This document shows positions 8,537-30,231 of a DNA stretch of 64,000 bases, in pieces; position 1 is the first letter of the stretch; each line of letters begins with the position of its first letter. Both the position numbers and the translations under genes were made by a program. The notes under the pieces are model-generated. The model did not search any database and was not told the origin of the DNA. It saw only the letters and a list, made by a program, of their open reading frames with translations. Source of the stretch: Sphingobium sp. TKS (GTDB taxonomy: Bacteria; Pseudomonadota; Alphaproteobacteria; Sphingomonadales; Sphingomonadaceae); NCBI RefSeq assembly GCF_001563265.1, contig NZ_CP005086.1, positions 1 to 64,000 on the forward strand, given 5' to 3'.

Positions 8537-8980
8537 GTGCGCCTTACACGCTACACGGACTATTCGCTCAGGGTGCTGATCCACCTGGCGCTGAACGATG
8601 AGCGGCTATGCTCGATCGGCGAGATGTCGCGCACCTACGATGTATCTCATAACCACCTCATGAAGGTCGTCAACGCGCTTGCCCATGACGGTTTTATCAG
8701 GACGGTGCGCGGCCGCGGCGGCGGCATGCAGCTTGCTCGTGCGCCCGAAACAATCACTGTGGGCGACGTCGTTCGCCGGACCGAGGAAGGCTTCCAGTTG
8801 GCTGATTGCTCTGGCTGCGCACTCTCGCCGGCCTGTGGACTGACCGGTGTCCTCGCTAAAGGCATGCAGGCGATGATGGCCGTGTTCGATTCCTACACGA
8901 TCGCCGATCTGCTGATCGACAAAGATGCGATGCGCCGGCTGATGAACCGCGAGTCCCCTATCGGCATCGGAACTGTCTGA
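8537..8980 (+). CDS. nsrR: NsrR-type Rrf2 transcriptional regulator (copy 1)
   Basis: A 147-residue Rrf2-family protein: an N-terminal winged helix (SIGEMSRTYDVSHNHLMKVV) and three cysteines C91, C94 and C100 in DCSGCALSPAC, the iron-sulfur ligand pattern of the NO sensor NsrR. NO destroys the cluster and releases repression. The GTG start is supported by an AGGAGAGG ribosome-binding site at 8526-8533. It converges with hemA and stands at the left edge of an NO-detoxification island whose right edge carries a second NsrR (29800-30231) with identical cysteine spacing. The two are clearly paralogous but differ throughout, so they may bind different sites. Confidence 0.85.
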   Translation: MRLTRYTDYSLRVLIHLALNDERLCSIGEMSRTYDVSHNHLMKVVNALAHDGFIRTVRGRGGGMQLARAPETITVGDVVRRTEEGFQLADCSGCALSPACGLTGVLAKGMQAMMAVFDSYTIADLLIDKDAMRRLMNRESPIGIGTV

Positions 8981-8998
8981 AGGAAGGGCGCCGTCGAA

Positions 8999-9015
8999 GC
9001 CGCCCGTCAGGCGGC
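8999..9015. terminator. Short GC hairpin between convergent nsrR and hemA
   Basis: GCCGCC (8999-9004) and GGCGGC (9010-9015) pair around a 5-base loop, overlapping the hemA stop region. It lies between two convergent genes, so a bidirectional terminator is plausible, though there is no clear T-tract. Confidence 0.4.
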
Positions 9016-10278
9016 CAATCGGATATCGAGCCGTTCCCATATTTCAGCCAGTGCAGCGGTCAGTGCTTGCATCATCTCGAGGTTATGGGTCGGTCCGGGC
9101 GTGAACCGCAGCCGCTCGGTGCCACGGGGAACCGTCGGAAAATTGATTGGCTGCACGTAGATTCCATATTCAGCGAGCAGGATGTCGCTGATCTGCTTTG
9201 TCTTGACCGGGTCGCCAACCATAAGAGGCACGATATGGGTCGTCGACGGCATGACAGGCAGCCGCGCATCTGCGAGCAGCTGCTTGAGCATGGCGGCCGC
9301 GGCCTGCTGCCCCTCCCGTTCTGCGCTCGATGACTTAAGGTGCCGGACGCTGGCCAGTGCGCCGGCCACCAGCACGGGTGAGAGCGATGTCGTGAAGATG
9401 AAGCCCGGCGCATAGCTGCGGATCACATCGATGATGCTGCGATCCGCTGCAATGTAGCCGCCCATGACGCCGATCGCTTTCGCCAGCGTACCTTCGATCA
9501 CAGTGAGCCGCCGGGCAGCATCATCCCGATCGGAAATCCCACCGCCGCGAGGACCATACATTCCCACGGCATGAACCTCGTCGAGATAGGTGAGCGCGTC
9601 GTATTTCTCGGCAAGGTCGCAAATTGCATGGATGGGTGCGACATCGCCATCCATAGAGTAGACGCTCTCGAAGGCGATCAGCTTGGGAAGCGAGGGGGCC
9701 GTTTCGGCAAGCAGTTCTTTAAGATGCTCAAGGTCGTTGTGCCGCCAGACCTTCTTTTCGCACCCCGAAGAGTGAATGCCCGCGATCATGCTCGCATGAT
9801 TGAGCGCATCGGAGAAGATCACACAGCCCGGTAGGACCTTTGCGAGCGTGGAGAGCGTCGCCTCGTTCGATATATAGCCGGACGTGAAAAGCAATGCGCC
9901 TTCCTTGCCGTGGAGGTCGGCGAGCTCGGTTTCGAGATCGATATGATAGTGCGTGTTTCCACCGATATTGCGCGTACCGCCAGAACCCGCGCCGACGTCA
10001 TGGAGCGCCTCTTCCATGGCCGCAATTACCTTGGGATGTTGGCCCATCGAGAGATAGTCATTGGAACACCAGACGGTGATCGGCTTGGGACCATTGTGGC
10101 CAGCAAAGCAGCGCGCATCGGGAAAGGAGCCTTTGTTACGCAGGATGTCGATAAAGACGCGGTATCGTCCTTCACCATGGAGCTTGGCCAGTGCCGCATC
10201 AAACATCGTCTGATAGCGACTTGGACACTGTCGCTGCGGTGTTTCGGCTATCGGTGCGACAGTGCTTTGTGGTGTCAT
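9007..10278 (-). CDS. hemA: 5-aminolevulinate synthase (ALAS)
   Basis: This enzyme condenses glycine and succinyl-CoA to 5-aminolevulinate, the first step of haem synthesis in alphaproteobacteria, using pyridoxal phosphate. The 423-residue protein shows typical landmarks: [20 protein letters not shown] near residue 30, [23 protein letters not shown], the [11 protein letters not shown]sp/His loop and the PLP lysine in [12 protein letters not shown]. The ATG at 10278 is preferred over 10302 because a GGGGA motif lies upstream of it. Its position inside an island of haem proteins suggests a dedicated, NO-inducible haem supply beside a chromosomal copy. An NsrR-like dyad lies about 45 bp upstream. 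Confidence 0.9.
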
Positions 10279-10320
10279 GGACCAACATCCCCAAAAACCC
10301 ATCCTGTGCTACACAGAAAA

Positions 10321-10340
10321 CATGCATCTAGAATGCAGCA
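10321..10340. promoter_or_regulatory. NsrR-like dyad upstream of hemA
   Basis: The half-sites ATGCAT and AATGCA flank a short TCTAG-type centre, giving an imperfect palindrome about 45 bp upstream of the hemA start. The ATGCA repeats resemble the known NsrR consensus (AAGATGC followed by GCATCTT) and the two dyads upstream of the haemoglobin operon at 29706-29763. Function is inferred. Confidence 0.45.
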
Positions 10341-10459
10341 TAGCGATGCTGCTCGCCATACTCAAGGTGGCTGCAGTTGTGCCTCGGCGTTGAGATATGA
10401 AGCGCTCGGATAGGGCCTCGCAGCGTGCTCATATAAACGAGCGGGTGAGTCGCGTTTGA

Positions 10460-10843
10460 TCAATTCTCATCGACGATGCGGTCAAGTGCGAGTGCTCCGA
10501 CTTTCCTGTCTTTCAGATGGACTTCAACAGTCCAGAACAGGTGGCCTTGATAATAGTCGTGGACGGTGATCGAGTCGGAGTAGAGGCAGCGCGCAATCTC
10601 GGGCTCGTGGCGATCCCCGGTGCAACGCGCGCCTGCTTTTTCGAGGATGGCGAGGGCCGTCCAGAAAGACGAACCAAGAGGTATTGCCCGCGAAAGTGTC
10701 GCTCTCGCATGGTCCAGTTTGTTGTCCCATTGGTAGTCGTCTTCGAGTGCCGAGAAAAGTAATCCTGGATCCTGAGGCCCCTTTGCGTGAAGCGCTGGAG
10801 AAATGGAAAAAGCGGCGAGCACAATCAGCGTTCTGAAGATCAT
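10460..10843 (-). CDS. Small secreted protein of unknown function
   Basis: A 127-residue protein with a clear Sec signal peptide (hydrophobic stretch LIVLAAFSISPALHA in residues 5-20, cleavage likely after AHA-type LHA). The mature part has two cysteines (CTGD and CLYS) that could form a disulphide, and the end of the protein (HLFWTVEVHLKDRKVGALAL) looks like a beta-rich fold. No family was recognised. It lies between nnrS (85 bp upstream) and hemA in the same direction, so it may be co-expressed with the NO-response genes. Confidence 0.6.
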   Translation of the reverse strand: MIFRTLIVLAAFSISPALHAKGPQDPGLLFSALEDDYQWDNKLDHARATLSRAIPLGSSFWTALAILEKAGARCTGDRHEPEIARCLYSDSITVHDYYQGHLFWTVEVHLKDRKVGALALDRIVDEN

Positions 10844-10928
10844 ACGATTCCTTTAGGGCGGTAATCAGATCGCAAAACCGCAATATATTGTGGGCTGAGT
10901 TCAGCAATATTGTACTGAATCGGCCGAA

Positions 10929-12128
10929 TTATCCGGGACGGCCATCGAGACGAGGCGTCCAATATATGCGCGAACCCCATACCACCCATGGCACGAAGGC
11001 GATGAGCCATCCGGCCGCGGCGATGGATTGCCAGGCGAGCCAGTCTTGCGCGAGCTCTGCGCCAATCCGGATGATGCAAACGATTTGCACCGCCGCAAAA
11101 GCATAGGCGGCAATCGGCGGCAGGATGAGCGGGCGTGCCGAATGCCCTTGGGTGACACGCGTCACCATCGCGATGAGAATGCTGCCGAAGAACCCGACAA
11201 ACAATGCATGCGCCGGAGCCTTGCCCAGCGTGAGCTGCCCGCTGATCGCAAACACACTGTTCTGAGCCGTGGAGAGCGCGAAAGCGATCGGTAGCCACGC
11301 CAGCCCGATGAACAGGACGAGCAGTAGTGGGGGCATGTGCCGGCCCGGCCACCAGCGAACGAATAGAAGCAACGTCAGCAGGAATAGCGGCAGATCCGAT
11401 ATCCAGAGCCAGCGTAACGGCAGGGCCAGTTGAAGTGCGAAGAGTACCCAACCCGCCATGAGAGCCCATGACGGGCGCCAAGGTTCATAGCCCTCGATGG
11501 CACTCGCCGCAAAAAACGGGATCATCCTATGCGCCACGGTAAAGAACACCGGAACCAATAGCCCGAACGTCCCGATCCTGACGGCCGCGTCGGCCAATGC
11601 CTCGTTCGCCGTTGTCAAATAGGCGATCCAGAACACGAGCCCGATCGCGCCGAGGCACATGGCACCCAGGCATCCTTGCGCATGCCATGTCTTCCCGGCG
11701 TCGCGCACGGCCAGCCGCGCGAGAGGAACGAGGCCGATGCACCAGCCGGCCAGCGTCGCAAGTGCGCCGGCAACCATGCCTGCATGCCAGCCGAGCGCCC
11801 CGGCGAGTGTCAGCAGTTGGCCGATCAGCAGACCAGCTCCAACGGGCCATGCTTTGCGCCGGTCGAGATCCGGTTCGCCGATCCAGCGCGGAAAGACCGT
11901 CAGCAGGAATCCGAAGAAAAAGCTGGGCAGCACCTGGTACTGCATCAGGAATGCATGGACGCGGCCCGCGTAGAAGGCTGGCTGCGGCATCGCGAAACAG
12001 CCCCACCGCACCGCGGATAGCCAGGTAGCCCACCATGCCATCGCCAGCAATAGGTTGAGCCCGCCGACGAAGAACATCAGCCGGTGCGGGGCGCGGCCGA
12101 GGTTCGATAGGGATAGCGACGATGGCAT
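10929..12128 (-). CDS. nnrS: NnrS family haem/copper membrane protein
   Basis: A 399-residue polytopic protein with about 12 hydrophobic segments. NnrS proteins are haem- and copper-containing membrane proteins that protect against nitrosative stress and are controlled by NO regulators. Family signs include GRVHAFLMQYQVLPSFFFGF near residue 50, FFTVAHRMIPFF near residue 200, GHSARPL and the conserved HALFVGFFGSILIAMVTRVTQG. The ATG at 12128 follows a strong AAGGAGG site. It is the last gene of the cbb3 oxidase operon, 25 bp after ccoS, tying NO protection to microaerobic respiration. Confidence 0.88.
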   Translation of the reverse strand: MPSSLSLSNLGRAPHRLMFFVGGLNLLLAMAWWATWLSAVRWGCFAMPQPAFYAGRVHAFLMQYQVLPSFFFGFLLTVFPRWIGEPDLDRRKAWPVGAGLLIGQLLTLAGALGWHAGMVAGALATLAGWCIGLVPLARLAVRDAGKTWHAQGCLGAMCLGAIGLVFWIAYLTTANEALADAAVRIGTFGLLVPVFFTVAHRMIPFFAASAIEGYEPWRPSWALMAGWVLFALQLALPLRWLWISDLPLFLLTLLLFVRWWPGRHMPPLLLVLFIGLAWLPIAFALSTAQNSVFAISGQLTLGKAPAHALFVGFFGSILIAMVTRVTQGHSARPLILPPIAAYAFAAVQIVCIIRIGAELAQDWLAWQSIAAAGWLIAFVPWVVWGSRIYWTPRLDGRPG

Positions 12129-12153
12129 GGAACCTCCTTGCCCGCGCCTCTGA

Positions 12154-12303
12154 TCAAAGAGGGCGGTCCTCATCGTTCAGGATGCGCTCTGCGGCACCTG
12201 CGACATCCTCATATTGTCCACTTTTGAAGGCCCAGAAGAACAGGCCGAGTCCGATACCCCCCAACGTCAGCGAGATCGGAATCAGGTACCACAGGACATT
12301 CAT
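12154..12303 (-). CDS. ccoS: cbb3 oxidase assembly protein CcoS
   Basis: A 49-residue single-span membrane protein (LWYLIPISLTLGGIGLGLFF, then FWAFKSGQYED), the standard CcoS pattern. CcoS is needed to insert cofactors into the cbb3 oxidase. Its ATG overlaps the ccoI stop by 4 bases, so the two are translationally coupled. The acidic tail (NDEDRPL) matches the family. It is too short for ordinary gene-length cut-offs and easily missed. Confidence 0.88.
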   Translation of the reverse strand: MNVLWYLIPISLTLGGIGLGLFFWAFKSGQYEDVAGAAERILNDEDRPL

Positions 12304-14537
12304 TTCGGGCGACCCGCGCCAAACCGTCCCACAGCTCCGGCGCGCAGTCGCAGAGCATTGGCAACGACGAAAATCGAAGACCCTGACATCGCCAGCGCAG
12401 CCAGCAGAGGTGTCACGTACCCTGCTATCGCGATCGGCAGCGCGACCAGATTGTACAGAGCCGCGAATGCAAAATTCTGCCGGATCAGACGGTCGGCCGC
12501 ACGCGCGGTTTCGATGGCGTAAGGGACACTCCCGAGATCGGAATGAAGAAAAACGAAATCTGCCGCCTGGCGCCCGACGTCCGCGGCATTTCCTGGAGCC
12601 ATGGAGACATGCGCTGCGACGAGGGCTGGCGCATCGTTCAGTCCGTCGCCGACCATCAATACCTTGCGGCCCGCTCGTGCCAGCCCATCCAGATAGGTTG
12701 TCTTCTCTGCAGGCAGCAACGCAGCGCGGGCCTGTGAGATGACGAGATCGGCCGCAACCATAGCGACCGCCTCCGGGGTGTCTCCCGACATGATCTCGAC
12801 ATCGTAGCCGCGAGCGCGCAACTCCGCGAGCGCAGTCGCCGTCCCCGGCCGCAGCGTATCGGTAAAAGTAAACGCTTCTGCGAGGACCCCATTGCAGCCG
12901 AGCACGGTCCCTGCCACGTCGCCGGGGCCGTTCCTGCCGAGGGCCCACTCGGCTCGGCCAAGTCGCCACACGTCCTCCCCGATCCGGGCTTCAAGGCCAA
13001 GCCCTGCATGCTCGACGATGCTGTCGAAGGCTATCGCCATAGGCGAAGCCGCCGCCGCGAGGGCCTTGGCATAGGGGTGATTTGAATTCTTGCCCATTTG
13101 CGAGGCAATGGTCAGATAGCTGGACTGAGTGCCGGGGTCTTGGCGCAAACGAGGCTGGCCCAGCGTCAATGTCCCGGTCTTGTCGAAGATGACCGTATCG
13201 ATCTCGGCAAGCCGCTCCATGGCGGCGCCATCCTTGACCAGTATCCCGCGCTCGAAAAGCGCTCGCGCAGCGACAATCTGGACCATCGGTACGGCGAGCC
13301 CGAGCGCGCACGGACATGTGATGATCAGCACCGCGACCGCGATCGTGAGCGAGCGGTGCCAGTCGCCGGTAGCCAGCATCCAGCCGAGGAAGCTCAGCAC
13401 GGCGGCACTATGCACGATCGGAACGTAAAGCCGCGCCGCACGGTCCGCGATGCGCCGGAATTGGGCACGTCCACCTTCGGCAGCCTCCATGAGCCGGACC
13501 ATCTCCGCCAGGAAACTCTCCTGCGGCGTGGTCGTGGCGCAGATCGTCAGCGGTCCTGTCAGATTGAGCGTCCCCGCACGAAGTCGGCTACCCGGCAGGA
13601 TCTGTTCCGGCCGGCTTTCTCCGGTCGCGATCGCAGCATCGATATCCGAACGTCCATCGAGCACAACTGCGTCGACCGGGATGCGATCGCCCGGCCGCAC
13701 AAGAATGGTCATGCCGGGCCCGATATCTTCGGCGGCGAGATAGGTCAGGCTCCCATCAGCCGTGACCACCGTCGCCCCATAACTCGTCAGTCGACGAAGT
13801 CCCTTCACGGCGGCGCGGGCTTTCTCGCGCATCATATAGTCGAAGGTTCGGCCGATCAGCAGAAAGAACAGCAGCGTCACTGCCGCGTCGAAATACGCAT
13901 AGGGCTGACGATGGATCGTATCGTAGAGACTCATTGCGAACGCCAGGAGAACGCCGATCGAGATCGGCACATCCATATTGGTCTGCCCGTTTCGCAAAGC
14001 CTGCCAGGCCGACTGAAAGAACACCTGGCCGGAATAGGCGAGCGTCGGAAGCGCGATCGCGGCCGACAGCCAGTGGAACAGGTCCCGGGTCTCGCCTGCA
14101 GCGCCGGACCAGACCGAGACCGAAAGCCCCATGATGTTCATCGAGGCGAAGCCGGCAACCGCGAGAGCCCGGACGAGATGCCCGAAACGTGGATCTTTCG
14201 CATCGGTTTGCGGCTCGTGAATATGGGCCTCGTAGCCGAGTCCAGAGAGCGTTTCGCCAAGCGGTGGCGGCCCCTCGTTCTCTTGCCAATCCACCGTAAC
14301 GCGCCGGGTCGAAAGATTGACGCGGGCCCGCGTCACCCCGGGGAGACGGCTCAGCGCATCCTCGATCTTACGAATGCACCCGCCACAACTGATACCCGGG
14401 ACCGACAGGTCTGTATGGCGCAATCCGCTATCGATCTGCCGGCTCGCCAGCAAAAGTTCTTCGCCCGATATTCCAGGGAGGGCGGACGCGATTGTCACGC
14501 CTTCACCGCACCGCACGGTAGGCATGCCATGTGGCAT
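12300..14537 (-). CDS. ccoI: Copper-transporting P-type ATPase CcoI/FixI
   Basis: A 745-residue P1B ATPase that delivers copper for the cbb3 oxidase. Visible features in order are an N-terminal cysteine, a heavy-metal-associated domain with C51 and C54 in SCGGC, the TGES actuator motif, the membrane metal site CPC in ITCPCALGLAVP, the phosphorylation site DKTGTLT, the HP-type motif in SNHPYAKAL and the hinge GDGLNDAPAL. These are all intact. Length and FixI-like N-terminus fit the ccoGHIS partner rather than a copper-resistance CopA. It overlaps the DUF2189 gene upstream by 35 bases and ccoS downstream by 4. Confidence 0.9.
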   Translation of the reverse strand: MPHGMPTVRCGEGVTIASALPGISGEELLLASRQIDSGLRHTDLSVPGISCGGCIRKIEDALSRLPGVTRARVNLSTRRVTVDWQENEGPPPLGETLSGLGYEAHIHEPQTDAKDPRFGHLVRALAVAGFASMNIMGLSVSVWSGAAGETRDLFHWLSAAIALPTLAYSGQVFFQSAWQALRNGQTNMDVPISIGVLLAFAMSLYDTIHRQPYAYFDAAVTLLFFLLIGRTFDYMMREKARAAVKGLRRLTSYGATVVTADGSLTYLAAEDIGPGMTILVRPGDRIPVDAVVLDGRSDIDAAIATGESRPEQILPGSRLRAGTLNLTGPLTICATTTPQESFLAEMVRLMEAAEGGRAQFRRIADRAARLYVPIVHSAAVLSFLGWMLATGDWHRSLTIAVAVLIITCPCALGLAVPMVQIVAARALFERGILVKDGAAMERLAEIDTVIFDKTGTLTLGQPRLRQDPGTQSSYLTIASQMGKNSNHPYAKALAAAASPMAIAFDSIVEHAGLGLEARIGEDVWRLGRAEWALGRNGPGDVAGTVLGCNGVLAEAFTFTDTLRPGTATALAELRARGYDVEIMSGDTPEAVAMVAADLVISQARAALLPAEKTTYLDGLARAGRKVLMVGDGLNDAPALVAAHVSMAPGNAADVGRQAADFVFLHSDLGSVPYAIETARAADRLIRQNFAFAALYNLVALPIAIAGYVTPLLAALAMSGSSIFVVANALRLRAGAVGRFGAGRPK

Positions 14538-15285
14538 GACCTAACCACGGGAATACGATAATCAGGCCGGCGAACCCGGTTGCGACCGACAGGATAAAGA
14601 GCAGCAGCACCAGGAGACCCCAGACCAGCATGGTCGCAAGGTTGTTCCAGACGAGCGCCCAGCTCGTGCCCATGGCCGTTAGCGCATCGACCCGCTTGTC
14701 GAGCATCATGGGAATGGAAAAGGCCGAAATTGCGAAAGAGAATGCGGCAAAGAGCCCGCCGACAAGCGATCCCACGACCAGCATCGCGATCCCGCTGGTA
14801 GTCGTGAACAGCATTAGCGTGATATGATCGAGACCCGGAAATGGGCGGATGCCGAAGAACAGCGCGTAGATGATGACCGCCGCGCGCATCCAAAGCAGCA
14901 TGATCCCGCAGAGCAGCGCGCCGGTGAAGAGAACCTGGCCGCCTGCGCGTGCATGGGGCAGTAGCATGTGACGCAGCGAAACCGGCTCGCCGAGCTCGAG
15001 CGCACGGCTCTTGTCGTAGAGCCCGATGGCCAGCGCTGGGGCGAACACCAGGAATCCCGCGATCGCCGGGAACAGTGCGAAATCCCACGCCAGGCCCACC
15101 AGTCCCGCGACGATTCCCGCTGAAAGCAGGAAGACGAACAGGCCATAAAGCAGGCTCGGCCCCGGATGGGTGACAAGATCGCGCCATCCATCCCGCAGCC
15201 AGACGAAGACGTCTCCTGGCGTCAGGTCGCGGACATAGCGCCGTTCGGTCGGAAGCGGCGGAACGACAGGCGGGATCGTGGTCAT
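14503..15285 (-). CDS. DUF2189 domain membrane protein
   Basis: A 260-residue protein with about six hydrophobic segments, opening with a proline-rich cytosolic tail and RDLTPGDVFVWLRDGWRDL, the DUF2189 signature region. This family is often found beside terminal oxidase genes and has been annotated as related to cytochrome c oxidase subunit I, but no reaction is established. Here it sits inside the cco operon between the small membrane gene and ccoI, overlapping ccoI by 35 bases. A role in oxidase assembly or membrane integration is inferred from that position only. Confidence 0.75.
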   Translation of the reverse strand: MTTIPPVVPPLPTERRYVRDLTPGDVFVWLRDGWRDLVTHPGPSLLYGLFVFLLSAGIVAGLVGLAWDFALFPAIAGFLVFAPALAIGLYDKSRALELGEPVSLRHMLLPHARAGGQVLFTGALLCGIMLLWMRAAVIIYALFFGIRPFPGLDHITLMLFTTTSGIAMLVVGSLVGGLFAAFSFAISAFSIPMMLDKRVDALTAMGTSWALVWNNLATMLVWGLLVLLLFILSVATGFAGLIIVFPWLGHATWHAYRAVR

Positions 15286-15303
15286 CTTCTTCTCCCGATC
15301 ATC

Positions 15304-15492
15304 TCAGCAAGACGACTTGGCGGCACCGAACACGCCTGCGGCCTTAACCGTCCCGTCGCTCTTGGCATGGTCAACGCATCTGGGCTGCGACGTGGAAGCG
15401 ACATAGACCAGATGAGCGTTCGCGAGCAGGACCACGCCTAGCGCCGCGACCGCCAGTGCGAGGTAGAACTTGCGCGAACGCGGAAGCCTCAT
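15304..15492 (-). CDS. Small single-span membrane protein in the cco operon
   Basis: A 62-residue protein whose ATG overlaps the ccoP stop (ATGA arrangement at 15489-15492). One transmembrane helix (FYLALAVAALGVVLLANAHL) is followed by a short exposed tail containing two cysteines (PRCVDH and the terminal SSC). It occupies the place where fixH or ccoH often sits, but has no FixH domain and is far too short. The paired cysteines could bind metal or form a disulphide. No family was recognised. Confidence 0.6.
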   Translation of the reverse strand: MRLPRSRKFYLALAVAALGVVLLANAHLVYVASTSQPRCVDHAKSDGTVKAAGVFGAAKSSC

Positions 15493-16367: not shown

Positions 16368-16528
16368 GGCTTGTCCTCGTCTTCGATGATGTCGCGTGCG
16401 GCCTTGTCGAACCGACCCTTGTTCGCAGGCCAGCATGCGTAGAGCAGAGCCACGCCCGCCATCGCGACCAGGTAGAACAACCCGAACGATTTGGAGAAAC
16501 CAACCAGCGCTTGATGTCCGATATCCAT
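16358..16528 (-). CDS. ccoQ: cbb3 oxidase small subunit CcoQ
   Basis: A 56-residue protein with one transmembrane helix (FGLFYLVAMAGVALLYACWP) and a charged C-terminal tail ending DIIEDEDKPWR, the usual CcoQ pattern. CcoQ stabilises the oxidase complex. It lies 7 bp after ccoO and its stop overlaps the ccoP GTG start. The ATG at 16528 is preferred over an upstream one that would add an arginine-rich stretch. Confidence 0.88.
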   Translation of the reverse strand: MDIGHQALVGFSKSFGLFYLVAMAGVALLYACWPANKGRFDKAARDIIEDEDKPWR

Positions 16529-16535
16529 ACGGGGC

Positions 16536-17264: not shown

Positions 17265-17270
17265 CGGCGC

Positions 17271-18977: not shown

Positions 18978-19128
18978 ACCTCTATTGTTGGCGGCAGTTA
19001 CCATTGCGCTGCGCTCGATCTGCGTCGCATGGCGGAAACACCAATGAGGGTCCGGGCTGGCTGGCGCGCCTGCCATTGGCAGTCCAGGACAGCGCGTAGC
19101 GCAAGCGGCCCTTGGCCGCGCCGATGCC

Positions 19129-20979: not shown

Positions 20980-20993
20980 CGGTGAGGGGCGCA

Positions 20994-22955: not shown

Positions 22956-25238
22956 TCAACGTTCAACAGGTGACAATCGGATTTGCGGATCATGCCCGGG
23001 CCGCCGTCGAAGGCTGGCATAGCCCCAGCCGACCGCCACGATCAGGGGCAGGACGCCGGCGAACATGAAGATAAGATCGCCCGGCATGCGCAGCCATTCC
23101 AGCAGACGCGGCAGCGGTGCGCCCGTAAAGTTCAGTTCACGCGCATACCAATAACCATTCTCGATCACGGCATGCAATTGAAGCAGGCCGCCCGGCAATA
23201 GGCTGAGCAGGATCATCAGCGCGAGGCCGATATTCAATCCCCAGAAGGCAATGGCGATCAATCTTGAGATTTTGGACCAAACCTCTTCCTCGATCGCTTC
23301 GCGCAGGACGAACACCATGAGGGCGATGCCGAGCATGCCAAACACGCCCATCAGTGCGGCATGGCCATGGTTGGGCGTCAGGATCGTCCCCACTTCATAG
23401 TAACTCACGATCGGCGTGTTGATGAGAAAGCCGAACACGCCGGCGCCAAGAAAATTCCAGAAACCGACCGCCATGATGAACATGAAGGTCCAGCGATGGC
23501 GTTCAACGACGGAATCCTGTCCTTTCGTCGTGCGGACGAATGACCAGGCATCGAGCGTGATCATCGTCAAGGGCACCACTTCAAGCGCCGAGAAGACGGC
23601 CGAGAGCGCCATGTTGGCTTCGGTCTGGCCGGTCCAGTACCAATGGTGGCCAGTGCCGATCAGGCCGCCACCGAAATAGAGAATGGCGTCGAGATAAATG
23701 GTCCGCAGCGCCGTCAGACGATGCACGAGCCCCATCTTGTAAAACAGGATCGCGACGATGACGGTGACGAAGAATTCAAAAAAGCCCTCAACCCACAGAT
23801 GAATGATCCAGAAGCGCCAGGCATCGACGATCGTGAAATTGGTTTCGGACCCGAAGAACAGCGCCGGCAGGTAGAACATCGGAATGGCGAAGCCGGCCAG
23901 CAGGAAGAAGCGGGCGAGCGACTTGTGCTCGGGGTCGCGCAGCGCGGGCGCCACCGCCCGCCACAAGAGAACGAACCAGATGCACAGCCCGACGATCAGC
24001 AGCAATTGCCAGAACCGGCCGAGTTCGAGATACTCCCAACCCTGGTTGCCGAACCAGAACCACGAAAGCGGCAGCCATTGCAGGATTCCCGCCCATTCGC
24101 CCAGCATGCTGCCCACGATGACGATCGCGAAGGCGACGAACAGCACGTGAATGGCGAGACGCTGCCGCGGCGGCGTCTTTCCACCGAGCAGTTCCGCGAC
24201 GAACAGCGCACCCGCAACGAAGCTGGTGGCGATCCAGAACAGCGCCGATTGCAGGTGCCAGGTCCGCATCAGGTTGCTGGGAAACCAGGAGGCGAGGTCA
24301 AAACCGTAGAAATCCCCTGGATCCGCCCGGTAATGCGCGATCGCCGCGCCGAAGAAGACTTGGCCGAGCAGAAGAAGGGCGGCCACGCCCATATATTTGA
24401 CCGTGGCGCGCTGTGCGTCGCTGATGACCCAGTTTTGCATGGACGCAGGTGTTCCGTGCCAGCCCAGATAGTCGAACCGGCCGAAGGCAAGCAGCGCCAG
24501 CGCCGTGCCGCCGAGCAAGGCGATAAAGCTGAGCGCGCTCCAGATCAGCGCCGCGCCGGTCGGGCGATTGCCCGCAAGCGGATCATAGGGGAAATTGTTG
24601 GTATAGGAGTGACCGGTTCCTGGCCGCTCGGCGACTGAGCCCCAGGCCGCCCAGCCGAAGAAAGCGGTCAACTGGCGAAGCTCGCTCTTGTCGGTGATGA
24701 GGCTGGGAGCCAGACCGCCGTTGCGTTCCGGATGCTCGAAATAGCTGGCCCAGCGGCTCTGCTGCTGATCGAAGGCGGTGACGCCGGCAGGGAGCAGGGT
24801 GAGGGTGGCCGTTGCTGGATCGTAACGGTTGACGCGCAGTTGCAGCGCCACCTCACCATCGATGGCGGCACGATCGGCCAGGGTTAGTGCTACATAGGCT
24901 TTGCCGAAGCGGGTCTCGGCGCGTTCCTCCGCGACGGCGAGTGCCCAGGCATGAAGATAGGATGCGCTGAAATCCGGTCCAAGATAGCCACCATGCCCCC
25001 AGATGGAGCCATTGTTCATCAGGCCGTATTTGAGGAATACCTGCTGGCCGGCGCGGATATCAGCTCCAGTGAAAACGACTTGTCCGCGTGAGTCCACGAC
25101 ATGTTCGGGGACAGGCGGGGCGTTCGTATAGGTCTTCACCATCAGCAGGCCGAGCACGCCAAAGCCCAGTACCATGGTGAGAATCACGGCCCGGCGCCAC
25201 CAATGCGACAGATTTTCGACAGGCTCCGTTCTTGTCAT
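22956..25238 (-). CDS. norZ: Quinol-dependent nitric oxide reductase, single-subunit qNOR
   Basis: About 760 residues. It reduces NO to nitrous oxide in the membrane with electrons from quinol. The N-terminal part has one span plus a cytochrome c-like domain without haem motif (GQQVFLKYGLMNNGSIWGHG), followed by 12 spans. Haem and iron ligands are visible in TWHLQSALFWIA, GTGHHWYWTGQ and NHGHAALMG, and the conserved glutamates near EVVPLTM. The second ATG (25238) is chosen because GGAGGG lies at good distance; 25247 would be too close. A cupin gene 32 bp upstream shares its transcript. Detoxification rather than denitrification is likely, as no nir or nos genes are near. Confidence 0.92.
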   Translation of the reverse strand: MTRTEPVENLSHWWRRAVILTMVLGFGVLGLLMVKTYTNAPPVPEHVVDSRGQVVFTGADIRAGQQVFLKYGLMNNGSIWGHGGYLGPDFSASYLHAWALAVAEERAETRFGKAYVALTLADRAAIDGEVALQLRVNRYDPATATLTLLPAGVTAFDQQQSRWASYFEHPERNGGLAPSLITDKSELRQLTAFFGWAAWGSVAERPGTGHSYTNNFPYDPLAGNRPTGAALIWSALSFIALLGGTALALLAFGRFDYLGWHGTPASMQNWVISDAQRATVKYMGVAALLLLGQVFFGAAIAHYRADPGDFYGFDLASWFPSNLMRTWHLQSALFWIATSFVAGALFVAELLGGKTPPRQRLAIHVLFVAFAIVIVGSMLGEWAGILQWLPLSWFWFGNQGWEYLELGRFWQLLLIVGLCIWFVLLWRAVAPALRDPEHKSLARFFLLAGFAIPMFYLPALFFGSETNFTIVDAWRFWIIHLWVEGFFEFFVTVIVAILFYKMGLVHRLTALRTIYLDAILYFGGGLIGTGHHWYWTGQTEANMALSAVFSALEVVPLTMITLDAWSFVRTTKGQDSVVERHRWTFMFIMAVGFWNFLGAGVFGFLINTPIVSYYEVGTILTPNHGHAALMGVFGMLGIALMVFVLREAIEEEVWSKISRLIAIAFWGLNIGLALMILLSLLPGGLLQLHAVIENGYWYARELNFTGAPLPRLLEWLRMPGDLIFMFAGVLPLIVAVGWGYASLRRRPGHDPQIRLSPVER

Positions 25239-25279
25239 CGCTGGCATGCCCTCCGTCCCGTGTGCTCAGTTGGCTCGGT

Positions 25280-25618
25280 TCACTGTGCGAACAGGATCGT
25301 CAGCAACAAGGATGCGTCCTCAATGCCTCTCAGCCGGTGGCTTGCGCCGCCATCCAGGTAAATCCAGTCGCCGGCGGAAAGCTCGCATTCGGTGTCAGCG
25401 ATACCAAGCGTGATCCGGCCTTCCAGACAATGGAGCGTGATGTCCCCGGTGACTTCGTGCGCTGGTATTTCCCTGCCGGAAGGGATGACGAGACGGATCG
25501 CCTCGAAGCTCTTTGTCTTGACGATTGCGGTCGTTTGCTGGCTCGGAAAATCTTTGCCGAATGGCCGCAAGTCCACGATCTCACCTGCCTGGGCGTGGCG
25601 CTGTGCCATAGGCCGCAT
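25280..25618 (-). CDS. Small cupin-domain protein next to qNOR
   Basis: A 112-residue single cupin. The core is visible in EIPAHEVTGDITLHCLEGRI and ASHRLRGIEDASLLLTI, giving the two conserved motifs, though the usual metal histidines are reduced (HEV, HCL, ASH). Homologues beside NO reductase genes are usually of unknown function; binding of a metal or small ligand is inferred. It lies upstream of norZ in one operon. The start may be ATG 25618 or the in-frame ATG 25609; the former is very close to an AAAGG site. Confidence 0.75.
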   Translation of the reverse strand: MRPMAQRHAQAGEIVDLRPFGKDFPSQQTTAIVKTKSFEAIRLVIPSGREIPAHEVTGDITLHCLEGRITLGIADTECELSAGDWIYLDGGASHRLRGIEDASLLLTILFAQ

Positions 25619-25664
25619 CCTTTCACCGTCTTTTCAGAAATTTGGCTCATCGAGAATATTGAAT

Positions 25665-26152: not shown

Positions 26153-26500
26153 CTACCTCTCATGTTTGTAGACGATGACCGCCCGCGAACCGATGTCCGG
26201 TCGTCGGCTCCAGATCTCGAAAGCCTCGATGCCCGGTAGTGTGCGAGGCAATGCATCAAGGACCTGCTGCCAGTTCTCATGTTTCTCGCTGATCATGATC
26301 GTCCGCTCGCCATCCACGGAATCGATGGTCAACATGACGATAAAAATCGTTGAAGCGCTATAAGGCAGGCGTGCGACCGAAACCTGACGGACGGCGCTCC
26401 ATGGTTCGGACCAGTGCATTGCACGATTGCCGAGCACGACGGTGTCATGAGCAACATCAATGATTTCGATTGGCATTCTCTCAGGCTTGGCCATTCCCAT
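26153..26500 (-). CDS. Hypothetical protein, operon partner of the 66-residue gene
   Basis: A 115-residue soluble protein with no family recognised. The pattern suggests beta strands with a central hydrophobic stretch (TIFIVMLTIDSVDGERTIMI) and a histidine-bearing SEKHENWQQVL. An AAGGA site precedes the ATG. Its start lies 2 bp after the stop of the small helical gene upstream, so they form one operon. Confidence 0.55.
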   Translation of the reverse strand: MGMAKPERMPIEIIDVAHDTVVLGNRAMHWSEPWSAVRQVSVARLPYSASTIFIVMLTIDSVDGERTIMISEKHENWQQVLDALPRTLPGIEAFEIWSRRPDIGSRAVIVYKHER

Positions 26501-26502
26501 CT

Positions 26503-26703
26503 TTAATCCTTTAGCGAAGGGAATAGTCGTTCCCTAAGCGCGGCTGCATCGGCCTGCCGTTCCTCGACGGTCTTGTCATCGATGGCATCGATCGCGCTTT
26601 GTAGATGGACCGCAACGGTGCCGCGTTCGTTAACCTGGTCAAGAAGAGCCAACGCCTTCTTCATCAGCGACAAGGCCTTCTCCGTGTCCCTTTGCTTTTG
26701 CAT
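26503..26703 (-). CDS. Small helical hypothetical protein
   Basis: A 66-residue, mostly helical protein (RDTEKALSLMKKALALLDQV, then VHLQSAIDAI). Similar short proteins with an ALxLLD repeat occur widely in sphingomonads without known function. It leads the two-gene operon with 26153-26500. The Shine-Dalgarno signal is weak. Confidence 0.5.
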   Translation of the reverse strand: MQKQRDTEKALSLMKKALALLDQVNERGTVAVHLQSAIDAIDDKTVEERQADAAALRERLFPSLKD

Positions 26704-26837
26704 ATTGCCTGCCGTCTACCTTCGCGCTTGTAGCTATAATCGTAGCAGGCTGGCATCAACATGTCTGAATTAGATCCATATTGCCTGCATAACCAAGAAT
26801 GGAGTGCGCACAGATCGCTCATCCGGGTCGCAATCAG

Positions 26838-27119
26838 CTAGTCGTTCACCAGATTGTAGGCGATTCCGATCCGGCGCGGCGCGCTCGCGCGTTTTCCCAA
26901 TGTACGCTCGATGAATTTTCGCGCCGCTACCTCGTTGGAGAAGGAAACAGTGATGCTCGAATGCGTGCGGCCGATGCGTCCCCAACGGAGCGCGACGATG
27001 ACATGCCCAAATAGATCCTGTGACGCGTGTATATGATACGCCCGTGCTATGTTGCGCTCGGCATCGACCGCCTCAAGGGCACAGCACCAATCGACGAGTT
27101 GGGTTGGCGGCTCGAACAT
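26838..27119 (-). CDS. WGR-domain small protein
   Basis: About 93 residues from ATG 27119; a TTG at 27155 would add 12. The central part reads ALRWGRIGR with the Trp-Gly-Arg motif, flanked by strands typical of WGR domains, and continues as VSFSNEVAARKFIERTLGKR. WGR domains are found in PARP and in small bacterial proteins and are thought to bind nucleic acid. No catalytic domain is fused here. No clear ribosome-binding site was seen for either start. Two hairpin-forming repeats lie upstream. Confidence 0.6.
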   Translation of the reverse strand: MFEPPTQLVDWCCALEAVDAERNIARAYHIHASQDLFGHVIVALRWGRIGRTHSSITVSFSNEVAARKFIERTLGKRASAPRRIGIAYNLVND

Positions 27120-27163
27120 GGGAGGAACGTGCCAATGGGATTGCGGCCCGTCCAATTGATAAG

Positions 27164-27221: not shown

Positions 27222-27243
27222 TTCGCCGACGATGTCGCTTCGC

Positions 27244-27705
27244 TCAGAGGAGACCATGACTGCCGGCTGCAGCACCCATGATCGTCGCGACCGAGAGGAG
27301 AAGGACGATCCGGTGCAGTCTCTCCATCCGCACGAAATCGCGGGTGGGATGGACCGCGCCAGCGGTGCGATGATGGTGCGCCAGAGGCTCGATGACGAAG
27401 AGCATGAGCGCGAAAATCGCCCATAGACATACCATGGCGTGCATCCACCAGAAGCGGGGATCGATGAAGCGACCCCACATCTGGCTACGATAGACCATCC
27501 ACAGACCGCTCGCCCCGGCGATCAGAACCCAGATCCGGGCTTGAGGGGCGAAATGCTCCTCAAAGCGCCGGAACACTGCCAATCTCTCGGCGGGTGGATA
27601 GCCGCGACGGATGGACGGCATCACCACAAGCGTGACGAACGCGACCCCTCCGATCCAAACAACGATCGAGAGGACGTGCAGTGCGCGTGCCAGTGCGTCG
27701 CCCAT
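27244..27705 (-). CDS. CopD-like / DUF2269-type membrane protein
   Basis: A 153-residue protein with four hydrophobic spans (LHVLSIVVWIGGVAFVTLVV, WVLIAGASGLWMVY, HAMVCLWAIFALMLFVIEPL, IVLLLSVATIMGAAAG). Histidines in RALHVLSIV, MHAMVCLW and PLAHHHR could bind haem or copper. It resembles CopD/YncF-type integral proteins. It starts 10 bp after hmp in the same transcript as the haemoglobin genes, which hints at a membrane haem protein in NO resistance, but that is inference. Confidence 0.65.
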   Translation of the reverse strand: MGDALARALHVLSIVVWIGGVAFVTLVVMPSIRRGYPPAERLAVFRRFEEHFAPQARIWVLIAGASGLWMVYRSQMWGRFIDPRFWWMHAMVCLWAIFALMLFVIEPLAHHHRTAGAVHPTRDFVRMERLHRIVLLLSVATIMGAAAGSHGLL

Positions 27706-27715
27706 CGCGCTAGCG

Positions 27716-28930
27716 TCAGGCCGCCAGTAATTCGTCGGCAGGACCGAAGAACTCATAGTGGATGCGATCGGATGGCACACCCGCCAGCGACAGGGTCGAG
27801 ACCGCGTGGCGCAGAAACGGTCGAGGCCCGCAAATATAATAATGGGCGTCGGCAACCGACGTGTTGGCGACCAGCCACTCGTCGGAAATGATTCCGGCGA
27901 CGTCATAGTCGCGGCCCGCAACCTCGTCGGCGAGCGGTGTCTGGTGGAAGTCGATCACCTGGATCGCCTTGGCGCCGGTCGCTAGCGTGCGCACATGATC
28001 CCGCATCGCGTGCGTCAGCTTGTCGTGGGTGCCGTGGATATACTGAACAGGGATGCCGGCATCCTCGTTGGCGAGGGCTTCGAGCATAGCGACCATCGGC
28101 GTGAGGCCGACACCTCCCGAGAGCAGCACGACGGGTCGTTCGTCATGATCGTCGAGAAAGAATTCGCCAGCCGGGGCGGCCACCTTCAGGACTGTGCCCA
28201 CTTTGACGTCCCGGTGGATCCATCCTGAAGCCAGACCAAGCTCTTCGCGCTTGACCGAAATGCGATAGGTCTCGCCGTTGGGCGCAGCCGAAATCGAGTA
28301 GTTCCGCTTGACCGGCGGGTGGCCGGGGATCTCCAGCCAGAATGTCAAATATTGCCCGGGCTTATAGCCCATCACCGGTTGGCCATCGACCGGACGCAGT
28401 ATGTACGAGTTGATCACGCTGCTCTCGCGAACCACAGCGTCGACGCGGAAGTCGCGCCAGCCATTCCAGCCTCCGCTCGCGCCCTTCTGTTCGCCATAGA
28501 TGCGGCCTTCGCGCGCGATGAGGATATTGGCGAGGAACCAATAGGCCTCGCCCCAGGCCGCCAGGATTTCGTCGGTCGCAGCATCGCCGAGCACCGCCTT
28601 GATGGCCCCGAGGAGCGCCTCTGCGACATGCGGATAGTGCTCGGGCAGGATCTGGAGACCGACATGCTTTTGTGCGATCCTCTCGACAGCCGGTGCCAGC
28701 GCGCCAAGATTTTCGATGTTGCTAGCGTAAGCGAGGATCGCACCCGTCAACGCCCGCGGCTGCGACCCAGCATCGCCATGGTGCGACTGGTTGAACAGAT
28801 CGCGGATCTCTGGGTTCTGAAACATGCGGGCATACATCTCATTGACGATATCCAGGCCATGGGCTTCCAGTGCGGGAACGGTCGCCTTGACGAGCGCGAT
28901 CGTCTGTTCGCTGAGAGGTTGCGACATCAT
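27716..28930 (-). CDS. hmp: Flavohaemoglobin, NO dioxygenase
   Basis: A 404-residue enzyme that oxidises NO to nitrate with oxygen and NADH. Residues 1-140 form the globin domain, with proximal histidine in AQKHVGLQILPEHYP and B10 tyrosine in NEMYARMFQ. A FAD domain follows with RNYSISAAP near residue 207, then an NAD domain with LSGGVGLTPM and the closing YEFFGPADEL. All are intact. It starts at a double ATG after AGGAG. Genes upstream (truncated haemoglobin, DUF1971) and downstream (CopD-like) lie in the same direction, with an NsrR-like dyad before the first one. Confidence 0.93.
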   Translation of the reverse strand: MMSQPLSEQTIALVKATVPALEAHGLDIVNEMYARMFQNPEIRDLFNQSHHGDAGSQPRALTGAILAYASNIENLGALAPAVERIAQKHVGLQILPEHYPHVAEALLGAIKAVLGDAATDEILAAWGEAYWFLANILIAREGRIYGEQKGASGGWNGWRDFRVDAVVRESSVINSYILRPVDGQPVMGYKPGQYLTFWLEIPGHPPVKRNYSISAAPNGETYRISVKREELGLASGWIHRDVKVGTVLKVAAPAGEFFLDDHDERPVVLLSGGVGLTPMVAMLEALANEDAGIPVQYIHGTHDKLTHAMRDHVRTLATGAKAIQVIDFHQTPLADEVAGRDYDVAGIISDEWLVANTSVADAHYYICGPRPFLRHAVSTLSLAGVPSDRIHYEFFGPADELLAA

Positions 28931-28982
28931 ATTCTCCTGACTTTGAGGTTAAAAAACGGTGGTGCAATCCGAGGATCGACGA

Positions 28983-29258
28983 TCAGACGTCTGGGCGATG
29001 ATCGTAGAAATCGACCTGCATCTTCATCTGCCCGAGCGGGGTTACGAAATGCGGCTGTTGCGGAAGGACGAGCCCTGGCCTGTCCGGCGTCAGCACGATT
29101 TCCGAAGACGGATCGACATAGGTGAGCGTGAGCGCTCCTTCGATGACCCGGATCAGGCCCCACACGCCCGCCTTGGTGTCGTGACGCGCGCGCAAGGCCG
29201 CCGGGAGCGTGTGCTCATCAAAGATCGGTGTGGATCGATAGGGACGGCTTTCACTCAC
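28983..29258 (-). CDS. DUF1971 (YeaR/TehB-like) small protein
   Basis: A 91-residue protein of the YeaR/DUF1971 family: SESRPYRSTPIFDEHTLPAA at the start and the beta-rich centre WGLIRVIEGALTLTYV. In E. coli yeaR is induced by nitrate and NO through NsrR, and a cupin-like fold is assumed. The ATG overlaps the stop of the haemoglobin gene upstream (ATGA at 29255-29258). Exact chemistry is unknown; a role in tolerance of NO or tellurite is inferred from the family and from its place before hmp. Confidence 0.8.
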   Translation of the reverse strand: MSESRPYRSTPIFDEHTLPAALRARHDTKAGVWGLIRVIEGALTLTYVDPSSEIVLTPDRPGLVLPQQPHFVTPLGQMKMQVDFYDHRPDV

Positions 29259-29689
29259 GAAACTGCACCTCTGTGGTTTTGATCGATCGCGCGGCCGGCC
29301 CGGCTTTGGGGCGCGGGGCCGAGCTTGAAGAATATTGCGAGCTGGAGGCTCTCCGCGATGCGTGCTGCCTTTAATTGGAGCGCGACCGCGGCTGCAGGTT
29401 CCATCAGTTCGTCAGTGGTCTGCTTCCAAAGATCCAGCCAGCGATCGAAGAGGGCCGGGGTAATCCGATCTTTGTGCTTAAGATGTGCCGGGACAGGTTG
29501 GCCCTTATAGCGTCCGGTCGTCAGCATCACCGATGACCAGAAATGGGCCAGCTTCTCTAGATGTTCGGGCCAATCATGCACTGCGTCATTGAAGATCGGT
29601 CCCAACTCGGCGTCTGCCCGGACGCGAGCGTAAAAGGCGTTCACCAAATGCGAGAGACTGCTCTCATTGATCGCTGAGGGACCGTTCAC
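29255..29689 (-). CDS. Group III truncated haemoglobin
   Basis: A 144-residue 2-on-2 globin. The features are NAFYARVRADAELGPIFND, WPEHLEKLAHFWSSVML and the proximal histidine region GQPVPAHLKHKDRI, typical of group III. Group III globins bind oxygen and NO and are common in NO-responsive operons. The C-terminal 25 residues after FFKLGP are a basic extension. It is the first gene of an operon with DUF1971, hmp and the CopD-like gene. An NsrR-like dyad sits 17 bp upstream of its start. Confidence 0.88.
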   Translation of the reverse strand: MNGPSAINESSLSHLVNAFYARVRADAELGPIFNDAVHDWPEHLEKLAHFWSSVMLTTGRYKGQPVPAHLKHKDRITPALFDRWLDLWKQTTDELMEPAAAVALQLKAARIAESLQLAIFFKLGPAPQSRAGRAIDQNHRGAVS

Positions 29690-29705
29690 GACTCATCCTT
29701 CAATC

Positions 29706-29763
29706 ATGCATTGTGGATACATCTATGATGAACGTTTGAAAGATGCAACAGAAATGCATATAA
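29706..29763. promoter_or_regulatory. Two NsrR-like dyads between divergent trHb and nsrR2
   Basis: ATGCATT, six bases, then ATACATCT at 29706-29724 and AAGATGCA, four bases, AAATGCATAT at 29740-29763. The second matches the established NsrR consensus well (AAGATGC ... ATGCATCTT). One faces the haemoglobin operon and the other nsrR2, which fits autoregulation. Confidence 0.6.
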
Positions 29764-29799
29764 AATTACCGGGTCGGAGAAGGCCCGACAGGAACGAGC

Positions 29800-30231
29800 A
29801 TGAAGCTGACGCTGTTCACTGATTATTCGATGCGCGTGCTGCTCTATCTCGCGGCGCGACCGGATCGCCTGTGCTCGATTGCGGAAGTCGCCCGGGCTTA
29901 TGGGATTTCACAGAACCACCTGATGAAGGTGGTCAACGATTTGGCTCGTTCGGGCTACATCGATAGCGTCAGGGGGCGCAGTGGTGGTATTCGTCTCGGT
30001 AAGCGCCCCGCCGAGATCAACATCGGCTCGCTCGTCCGACATACGGAAGGAGGCTTTGATCTGGTCGACTGTGACGGATGCATCGTCGCGCCGGCGTGCC
30101 GGTTGACCGGCATCCTCAAAGAGGCACTTCGCGCATTCCTTTCGGTGCTCGACCGCTATACATTGGTCGATCTCGTTGTCAGTCCTCGCGATTTTGATCA
30201 GATCTTCGGCAAGCTCGAAGAGAAATCCTGA
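29800..30231 (+). CDS. nsrR: NsrR-type Rrf2 transcriptional regulator (copy 2)
   Basis: A 143-residue Rrf2 regulator with C91, C94 and C100 (DCDGCIVAPAC), the NsrR iron-sulfur pattern, and a winged helix SIAEVARAYGISQNHLMKVV. It is divergent from the haemoglobin operon with NsrR-like dyads between them, so it most likely represses that operon and itself until NO reacts with its cluster. It shares alignment over the whole length with copy 1 at the other end of the island, with identical cysteine positions. Confidence 0.88.
   Translation: MKLTLFTDYSMRVLLYLAARPDRLCSIAEVARAYGISQNHLMKVVNDLARSGYIDSVRGRSGGIRLGKRPAEINIGSLVRHTEGGFDLVDCDGCIVAPACRLTGILKEALRAFLSVLDRYTLVDLVVSPRDFDQIFGKLEEKS

Follow-up and report, generated by a model that had tools for sequence, protein, structure and literature searches.

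Bases 1–64000 of contig C4 of Sphingobium sp. TKS (NZ_CP005086.1), referred to below as the window, carry a set of genes for nitric oxide (NO) defence between positions 8537 and 30231, together with an operon for a cbb3-type cytochrome c oxidase. On balance we favour the view that this is an NO-defence and respiration island on a conjugative-type plasmid, whose oxidase belongs to a type assembled without CcoG or CcoH and recruited for nitrosative stress. This type, here called D-type, was defined by a DUF2189 gene together with cco genes and no ccoG or ccoH. The NO-defence set is a further example of a published kind of plasmid; the distinct oxidase class is the less expected part.

An earlier note on this DNA had described a plasmid-borne island bracketed by two NsrR paralogues, with a full cbb3 operon and almost every gene tied to haem or NO. 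The genes it named are all in place between the two regulators: those for 5-aminolevulinate synthase (ALAS), NnrS, CcoN, CcoO, CcoP, CcoQ, CcoI, CcoS, catalase, quinol-dependent NO reductase (qNOR), a cupin, flavohaemoglobin, DUF1971 and a truncated haemoglobin (trHb). The operon is not “full”, as ccoG and ccoH are absent from it, and “almost every gene” was an overstatement, with an NhaA gene, a WGR gene and three unknown genes belonging to neither group. These five had been overlooked, as had the DUF2189 gene, a 62-residue peptide and a DUF4149/CopD-like gene. That the island is plasmid-borne is well supported, because C4 (195,308 bp, in a genome of 6.23 Mb and 11 contigs) has genes for replication (a Rep3 initiator), partition (ParA-like) and a type IV secretion system (VirB4, VirB5, VirB6, VirB8, VirB11 and a VirD4-type coupling protein), as on a conjugative plasmid.

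The D-type cbb3 oxidase

The operon lies on the reverse strand in the order ccoN-O-Q-P-sTM62-DUF2189-ccoI-ccoS-nnrS. CcoN (17271–18917; start placed at the GTG at 18917, with the open frame continuing to 19229) scores 641.9 bits against TIGR00780, above cut-off, keeps the conserved His/Tyr set and aligns to a solved cytochrome-c oxidase chain. The mono-haem CcoO (16536–17264; Pfam FixO, 296.9 bits) and di-haem CcoP (15489–16436; Pfam FixP N-domain and two cytochrome c domains) of a cbb3 enzyme are both present, with a CcoQ-like reading frame (16358–16573; true start inside) that is 53% identical to a pISP0 protein annotated “cbb3-type cytochrome c oxidase subunit 3”. Next come sTM62, a 62-residue single-pass membrane peptide (15304–15492); the DUF2189 membrane protein (14503–15285; Pfam, 120.7 bits; alignment of 18 sequences); a CcoI-type copper P1B ATPase (12300–14537; Pfam, TIGR01511); CcoS (12154–12303; 45–64% identity to CcoS of other loci); and NnrS, of an NO-linked membrane protein family (10929–12173; Pfam NnrS, 181.8 bits). 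All frames from ccoN to nnrS overlap or lie at most 18 bases apart, taking the first in-frame start for most genes, which means that overlaps may be smaller; nnrS and ccoS overlap by 20 bases if that start is used and otherwise abut. Because of this spacing NnrS probably shares a transcript with the oxidase.

In a CcoN tree of 45 sequences, a single branch with support 100/100 separates 17 D-type from 28 CcoG-type rows; the groups were picked non-randomly, by DUF2189 without CcoG and by CcoG, respectively, and the tree itself uses neither. Dropped from it were D-type rows that were too short (L215, L222, L253), three near-duplicates, L214 and five canonical loci in which CcoN was not matched. 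D-type CcoN has 24 class-diagnostic residues, including a Ser in place of Pro immediately ahead of the His-His pair, while the shared His/Tyr columns are kept. The D-type is a separate alphaproteobacterial cbb3 class, often on plasmids. Its plan was found in Rhizobiaceae, Boseaceae, Paracoccaceae, Roseobacteraceae and Sphingomonadaceae, and on pSymA of S. meliloti 1021; Nitrobacteraceae have a D-type remnant without ccoNOQP. No description of the class was found in the open literature searched; subscription papers were outside that scope, and it may be known elsewhere.

The plan varies, with ccoI and ccoS located after DUF2189, before ccoN (L254, L261) or outside the stretch (L208, L219). In L220 the DUF2189 gene is on the opposite strand, and the CcoN of this locus sits at the base of the D side of the tree. 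The next detected gene to ccoN, on its upstream side, is a catalase gene in the window, L213 and L219. A DUF6522 gene follows trHb in the D-type operons of Shinella and a Roseateles-labelled genome (L208, L255), downstream of DUF2189, and one is also found near a Paracoccus operon (L257).

The sTM62 model consists of one helix and a low-confidence tail, the sequence of which is conserved. No variation was seen at Ala24, Asn25, His27, Ala32, Pro37, Cys39, Val40, His42, Ala57, Ala58 and Cys62 among 16 operon members, nor in a set of 22 rows (the window plus 21 from a protein search); Cys62 is the final residue in most members. The window peptide has no Pfam match and no Pfam family covers it; the 16 members gave one weak match each to four families, including FixH at E 0.078, which is too weak to build on. 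Of 7,992 proteins scored in a profile search, 1,933 matched at E<=0.001; the 120 matches listed are all without a Pfam domain. sTM62 is an unnamed peptide family. By tblastn it is present at 21 of 28 D-type loci versus 0 of 33 canonical ones, and three of the seven D-type loci without a match hold an annotated small gene at the same place.

The DUF2189 protein was modelled by AlphaFold2 with a mean confidence (pLDDT) of 79.9, and no PDB match to the fold was found at E<=0.001 (best 0.3; CysZ chains at template-modelling scores of ~0.4–0.5). A tblastn search matched 110 plasmid records, 78 of them at 60–80% identity and 32 below; 54 are from Sinorhizobium, and S. meliloti pSymA is included, which bears on why rhizobia keep several cbb3 copies. 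Within the family, 50 of 119 genomes have DUF2189 (59 matches). It was rejected as a stand-alone marker: most of the matches in 40 stretches are to a ~35% identical paralogue without detected cco neighbours, and several canonical operons have a DUF2189 gene close by. A single mention of the domain was found in the portions of the open literature searched.

The distribution of CcoG and CcoH was compared in 16 genomes with DUF2189 at >=48% identity or beside cco genes (weaker matches, such as G174 at 47% and G343 at 45%, were left out). Seven (G083, G017, G319, G275, G183, G302, G422) have one FixO, taken as D-type, and no FixG_C or FixH match at E<=0.001; FixO, sTM62 and DUF2189 occur together in six of these. 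Eight (G000, G071, G088, G114, G291, G212, G196, G321) have two or three FixO genes plus CcoG and CcoH, and G241 has one FixO, one FixH and no FixG_C match. This is the pattern expected if CcoG and CcoH serve the canonical enzyme only. All 28 D-type loci lack both genes, which is in part a consequence of how the class was defined. The D-type thus seems, as far as gene content can tell, to be assembled without need of CcoG or CcoH. The seven genomes offer a clean test of what these two proteins do and of what replaces them. CcoG is a cupric reductase with ferredoxin-like cysteine motifs. According to the accessible text of PMC8267372, cbb3 assembly cannot do without CcoH in either R. capsulatus or C. 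jejuni.

Regulators, operator boxes and linkage to NO genes

The two bracketing regulators (regulator 1, 8537–8980, Pfam Rrf2 114.7 bits; regulator 2, 29800–30231, 112.3 bits; both on the forward strand) are 53% identical over 127 residues. Both belong to the Rrf2 family, have the three cluster cysteines (Cys 91/94/100) and find NsrR as their top-scoring equivalog, at scores below its curated cut-off. Regulator 1 is 83% identical to a pHR1a regulator beside a nitrite/sulphite reductase.

The motif ATGYA-N7-TRCAT, which we take to be the NsrR 11-1-11 type pattern, occurs exactly twice in the 64 kb, both times inside the 110-base gap between trHb and regulator 2 (29706–29722 and 29743–29759, 37 bases apart) and thus upstream of NO genes. 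At <=1 mismatch there are nine matches in the window versus 3.8 expected, and nine were reached in one of 100 shuffles. Besides the exact pair, only a match near ALAS (10322–10338; one mismatch, suggestive only) is just upstream of the start of a named gene, and the chance rate at this threshold is 2.4% of 330-base windows. No box was found at <=1 mismatch upstream of cupin-qNOR, NnrS or regulator 1 in the window. The idea that every island promoter carries an NsrR box was ruled out, clear boxes being present only at trHb/regulator 2, with a weak one at ALAS.

The trHb boxes recur elsewhere. An exact box lies within 300 bases upstream of trHb at 17 of 27 loci, which share ancestry and include two near-duplicates, versus 1.0% of 5,400 windows drawn from these loci at random. 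Where there are two boxes, one of them with a mismatch in some cases, their spacing is 37 bases at 13 of 14 loci and 36 at the other. In genome G071 a D-type ccoN operon and a trHb-hmp unit diverge across the same two boxes. In the window, a palindrome upstream of ccoN (18961–18982, reverse strand) fits the extended NsrR pattern with two mismatches, a degree of fit that chance also produces elsewhere in the window. Because the G071 ccoN starts across the boxes themselves and the window ccoN has only this palindrome, NsrR control of the D-type oxidase is better supported in G071 and only suggested in the window. Control in cis by an FNR-type regulator was considered and dropped: the anaerobox TTGAT-N4-ATCAA was not found in the window at <=1 mismatch, so the low-oxygen half of the earlier description is without regulatory support here.

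Linkage was scored with NsrR/Rrf2, trHb, Hmp, DUF1971, NnrS, qNOR and a NirK-type protein as markers; the query sequences were taken from sphingomonads and Shinella, a choice that tilts the score towards near relatives. Markers are found at most 10 kb away for 12 of 28 D-type operons versus 1 of 39 canonical ones (Fisher p ~5e-5); the D-type plasmid loci were hand-picked, L255 was chosen with its trHb already visible, and the loci are not independent. Leaving out L255 and the window gives 10 of 26 versus 1 of 39 (p ~2e-4). Near-duplicates (L155, L089, L090, L212) and L252, from the same genome as L184, had been excluded from the count. In a set of 33 canonical operons, 28 of them hand-picked from CcoG matches in 131 genomes, for the most part high-ranking matches on long contigs, none has NO genes nearby. 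Outside the Sphingomonadaceae the figures are 7 of 22 D-type versus 0 of 25 canonical loci (p ~0.003; G071 canonical operon not included). Six genomes with a D-type (G071, G088, G114, G291, G196, G321) were scored for their canonical operons as well, and one of these has NO genes, that of G071, where they are found near both cbb3 types. In G212 the canonical genes are split over two contigs, and no NO genes were found near them.

Other island genes and their relatives

At the left end of the island, ALAS (9007–10302, reverse strand; TIGR01821, 638.6 bits, above cut-off), which supplies haem, is separated from nnrS by a gene for a 127-residue unknown protein without a Pfam match (10460–10843, reverse). 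On the other side of the oxidase operon are the catalase gene, divergent from ccoN (19462–20979, forward; Pfam Catalase, 623 bits), and that of the NhaA Na+/H+ antiporter, not an NO gene (21233–22426, reverse; Pfam, 451.6 bits). The remaining genes up to regulator 2 are all on the reverse strand. qNOR/NorZ (22956–25247) is a single chain with a cytochrome c-like N-domain fused to a NorB core (Pfam NorB_cytochrome_c-like and COX1) and matches a solved NO reductase chain at 556 bits over residues 21–762. The cupin (25280–25618; Pfam Cupin_2) lies 32 bases ahead of it. A cupin adjoins qNOR in L010, L089, L090 and L114 as well; as a general rule the pairing proved weak, with a cupin match within 3 kb of qNOR at only 6 of 80 loci. 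Two small unknown genes and a WGR-domain gene, without known NO link, follow (26153–27155).

The last block consists of trHb (group III, 29255–29689), DUF1971 (YeaR/TehB-like, 28983–29258), flavohaemoglobin Hmp (27716–28930; NF009805, 538 bits, above cut-off) and, downstream of hmp, the DUF4149/CopD-like membrane protein (27244–27708; 21.7 bits, below the cut-off of 24.6). Pfam gave no match for trHb; its name and that of DUF1971 rest on annotated plasmid relatives, at 76% and 80–81% identity, respectively. Counterparts 68–69% identical to the CopD-like protein are found in the same place on pISP0 and pSAMIE_3. The block is a second compact unit, divergent from regulator 2, and cupin-qNOR is a third.

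On at least 11 sphingomonad plasmids, matches to the ccoN-ccoO and hmp blocks lie together at a single place. The co-conservation called for by the earlier note is therefore present on the 11 plasmids listed, and because both blocks are matched together the set is not a chance neighbourhood. Gene order was compared in pISP0, pSAMIE_3 and the stretches L154 and L155. On pISP0 and pSAMIE_3, both typed conjugative, a D-type cco operon, hmp-DUF1971-trHb//Rrf2 and cupin-qNOR lie within ~14–17 kb in an order of the type cupin-qNOR, Rrf2//trHb-DUF1971-hmp-CopD, small genes (with lipoprotein or META domain annotations on some), ccoNOQP-sTM62-DUF2189-ccoI-ccoS. These regions differ from the window in that hmp and, after it, the cco operon share one strand, the qNOR is only 40% identical, and no match to ALAS, NnrS, catalase or NhaA was found in the stretches compared. 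qNORs 85–91% identical to that of the window are found on two other sphingomonad contigs.

The host has related genes outside C4: its genome contains three FixO genes, two qNORs and three trHb//NsrR units, and a trHb match is present in 40 of 119 family genomes. A chromosomal cluster (C1:578–592 kb) begins with Rrf2, a blue copper oxidase, two cytochromes c, a NirK-type cupredoxin and a TonB receptor, and continues with ALAS (82% identical to that of the window), ccoN (84%), ccoO, Q, P, sTM62, DUF2189, ccoS, CopD and NnrS; ccoI was not detected. The part from Rrf2 to the TonB receptor (L111, 8135–14272) directly precedes ALAS and the D-type operon. The 361-residue multicopper oxidase in it was considered as NirK and dropped on the strength of the text available from PMC4123721; the 307-residue protein is taken to be NirK and the larger one the accompanying blue copper oxidase. 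The cbb3 copy on C2 is of the canonical type: its ccoP is followed by ccoG, H, I and S. Given the wide occurrence of trHb, the contrast between 40% and 85–91% qNOR identity, and the chromosome's own ALAS-cbb3-DUF2189-CopD-NnrS cluster, the blocks move separately and are re-assembled from different sources. The proposal of a transferable NO and cbb3 module is supported in that the set recurs on sphingomonad plasmids and has NsrR-type boxes, and finds no support as regards a single fixed module. Two more cbb3 copies and another qNOR are encoded elsewhere in the host, so the trait is supplemented by the plasmid and not introduced by it.

Several neighbouring regions may be mentioned. Directly after regulator 2 are FUSC, HlyD and outer-membrane efflux genes of the fusaric-acid-resistance type (30939–35552). 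FUSC homologues 79–81% identical share stretches with NO genes in L010, L091 and L092, so this pump may be part of the NO neighbourhood. A pentose-phosphate set follows (35999–45912), comprising ribose-5-phosphate isomerase, transketolase, a 988-residue transaldolase-phosphoglucose isomerase fusion, 6-phosphogluconate dehydrogenase, glucose-6-phosphate dehydrogenase and a 6-phosphogluconolactonase-family gene. Next to it and to a Tn3-family transposase is a 2452-residue protein with glucoamylase and GH94 domains (45909–53267), resembling a cyclic beta-1,2-glucan synthase. AbiE-type toxin-antitoxin genes occur at two places on the plasmid (window 57097–58609; L099 2128–3243), and ~15 kb of L096 (C4 124001–144000) match a plasmid region of Sphingobium sp. 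MI1205 at 78%, where annotations include an aromatic-ring dioxygenase and an AMP-binding protein.

Competing explanations and known systems

NO damages the Fe-S cluster of NsrR-family repressors. In the reading favoured here, NO reaching such a cluster would free the tandem boxes between trHb and regulator 2, and trHb, DUF1971 and flavohaemoglobin would then be made and remove NO under oxic conditions; qNOR and its cupin would do so at low oxygen, while ALAS could supply extra haem. The D-type oxidase would assemble without CcoG and CcoH, with sTM62 and DUF2189 perhaps serving metal or haem delivery and subunit docking, and in sphingomonads it may have been recruited to sustain oxygen respiration under nitrosative stress. 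NsrR control, NO induction of the oxidase, the roles of sTM62 and DUF2189 and robustness to NO are what we infer from the genes and boxes. A bolder version, which we regard as tentative and would not yet back, is a second cbb3 assembly route in which DUF2189 and sTM62 (with its Cys-x2-His and C-terminal Cys) replace CcoG and CcoH; avoiding an NO-labile Fe-S protein would suit both nitrosative stress and plasmid spread into hosts without ccoG and ccoH.

A number of points weigh against the favoured reading. The NsrR scores of the two regulators (129 and 144 bits) do not reach the curated cut-off of 182, the candidate boxes at ALAS and ccoN in the window are inexact, and the island is interrupted by NhaA, WGR and unknown genes. 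Outside the sphingomonads, most D-type loci (15 of 22) lack any NO or Rrf2 gene within 10 kb, and the canonical ccoNOQP-GHIS operon of G071 has hmp-DUF1971-trHb//NsrR ~6 kb beyond ccoS (L202, L262–L263). In G422 the DUF2189 frame contains a stop codon and is on a different contig from FixO, in a fragmented assembly. CcoG is described as important but dispensable in C. jejuni in the text consulted of PMC8267372, so little can be argued from its absence taken by itself. As for the pSymA operon, fixI2 is called housekeeping in the available part of PMC5552934 (citing others), and fixI2/fixQP3 are down on solid media, not an NO response, in that of PMC2848241.

Some of the same evidence would be expected if ordinary NO-detoxification genes and a spare cbb3 oxidase were chance neighbours on a plasmid that gathers useful genes, with the oxidase used at low oxygen and matured by host CcoG and CcoH. 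The host does carry both proteins, on another replicon, 16 of 28 D-type loci lack an NO or Rrf2 neighbour, one canonical operon with NO neighbours exists (G071), and the plasmid bears unrelated metabolic genes. The seven genomes with a single FixO and no CcoG or CcoH match, the linkage of 12 of 28 versus 1 of 39 and the failure to find an FNR-type box in the window all speak the other way, and we consider this explanation unlikely, though it is the strongest of the three weighed here. A second possibility is that the island is not for defence and is part of a denitrification module respiring nitrite to N2O, as proposed for S. wittichii RW1. qNOR and NnrS would fit, as would the chromosomal paralogue beside a NirK-type multicopper oxidase cluster, and RW1 produces N2O from nitrite; the same source, in the text available, notes that qNOR often serves detoxification (PMC4123721). 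Since a Pfam scan of the island revealed no nitrite reductase gene, and flavohaemoglobin, DUF1971 and catalase indicate detoxification, a respiratory module appears rather improbable. Least probable by far is an island for oxidative or copper stress, to which NO would be incidental: the catalase gene beside ccoN, seen at three D-type loci, and the copper ATPase could be read in this way, but the families of the NsrR-type boxes, Hmp, qNOR, NnrS and DUF1971 tie them to NO, and the CcoI-type ATPase is the only copper-resistance family among the Pfam matches of those island genes that were scanned.

Of known systems, the closest in setting is the hmp-orf1-orf2-norZ cluster of the sphingomonad S. 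wittichii RW1, also plasmid-borne, with a flavohaemoglobin, a qNOR and an NO-responsive regulator, and with a chromosomal NsrR-nirK cluster in the same genome. Its plasmid hmp and norZ are expressed, and hmp is nitrite-responsive. It differs in that the plasmid cluster is described with an NnrR regulator, and the words “cbb3” and “cupin” do not occur in the text of the paper (PMC4123721, for all of these points).

The window operon shares ccoNOQP, ccoI, ccoS and the His/Tyr columns with canonical ccoNOQP-ccoGHIS operons, and differs from them in its CcoN class and in having sTM62 and DUF2189 instead of ccoG and ccoH. In these respects its counterpart is the third cco/fix operon of S. meliloti pSymA (NC_003037, ~326.9–333.9 kb), with ccoNOQP-sTM62-DUF2189-ccoI-ccoS in the same order, although no NO or Rrf2 gene was found within 10 kb of it. 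We take this to be the operon named fixNOQP3-fixI2S2. The nad1-1 mutant is a plant mutant whose nodules, judging by its name, activate defence. According to the accessible part of PMC10671737, fixN3O3Q3P3, fixI2 and fixS2 are raised in nodules of nad1-1.

Sphingopyxis granuli TFA resembles the window in having a cupin beside a single-chain NO reductase, with nnrS, and this cupin-norB-nnrS2 operon is NO-induced. Its cbb3 oxidase is the canonical ccoNOQPGHIS type, and the operon is not called plasmid-borne in the part of the paper available (PMC6472365). Whereas the canonical ccoNOQPG genes of that strain are NO-repressed (same source), the NsrR link of the D-type suggests that a terminal oxidase can join an NO-defence regulon.

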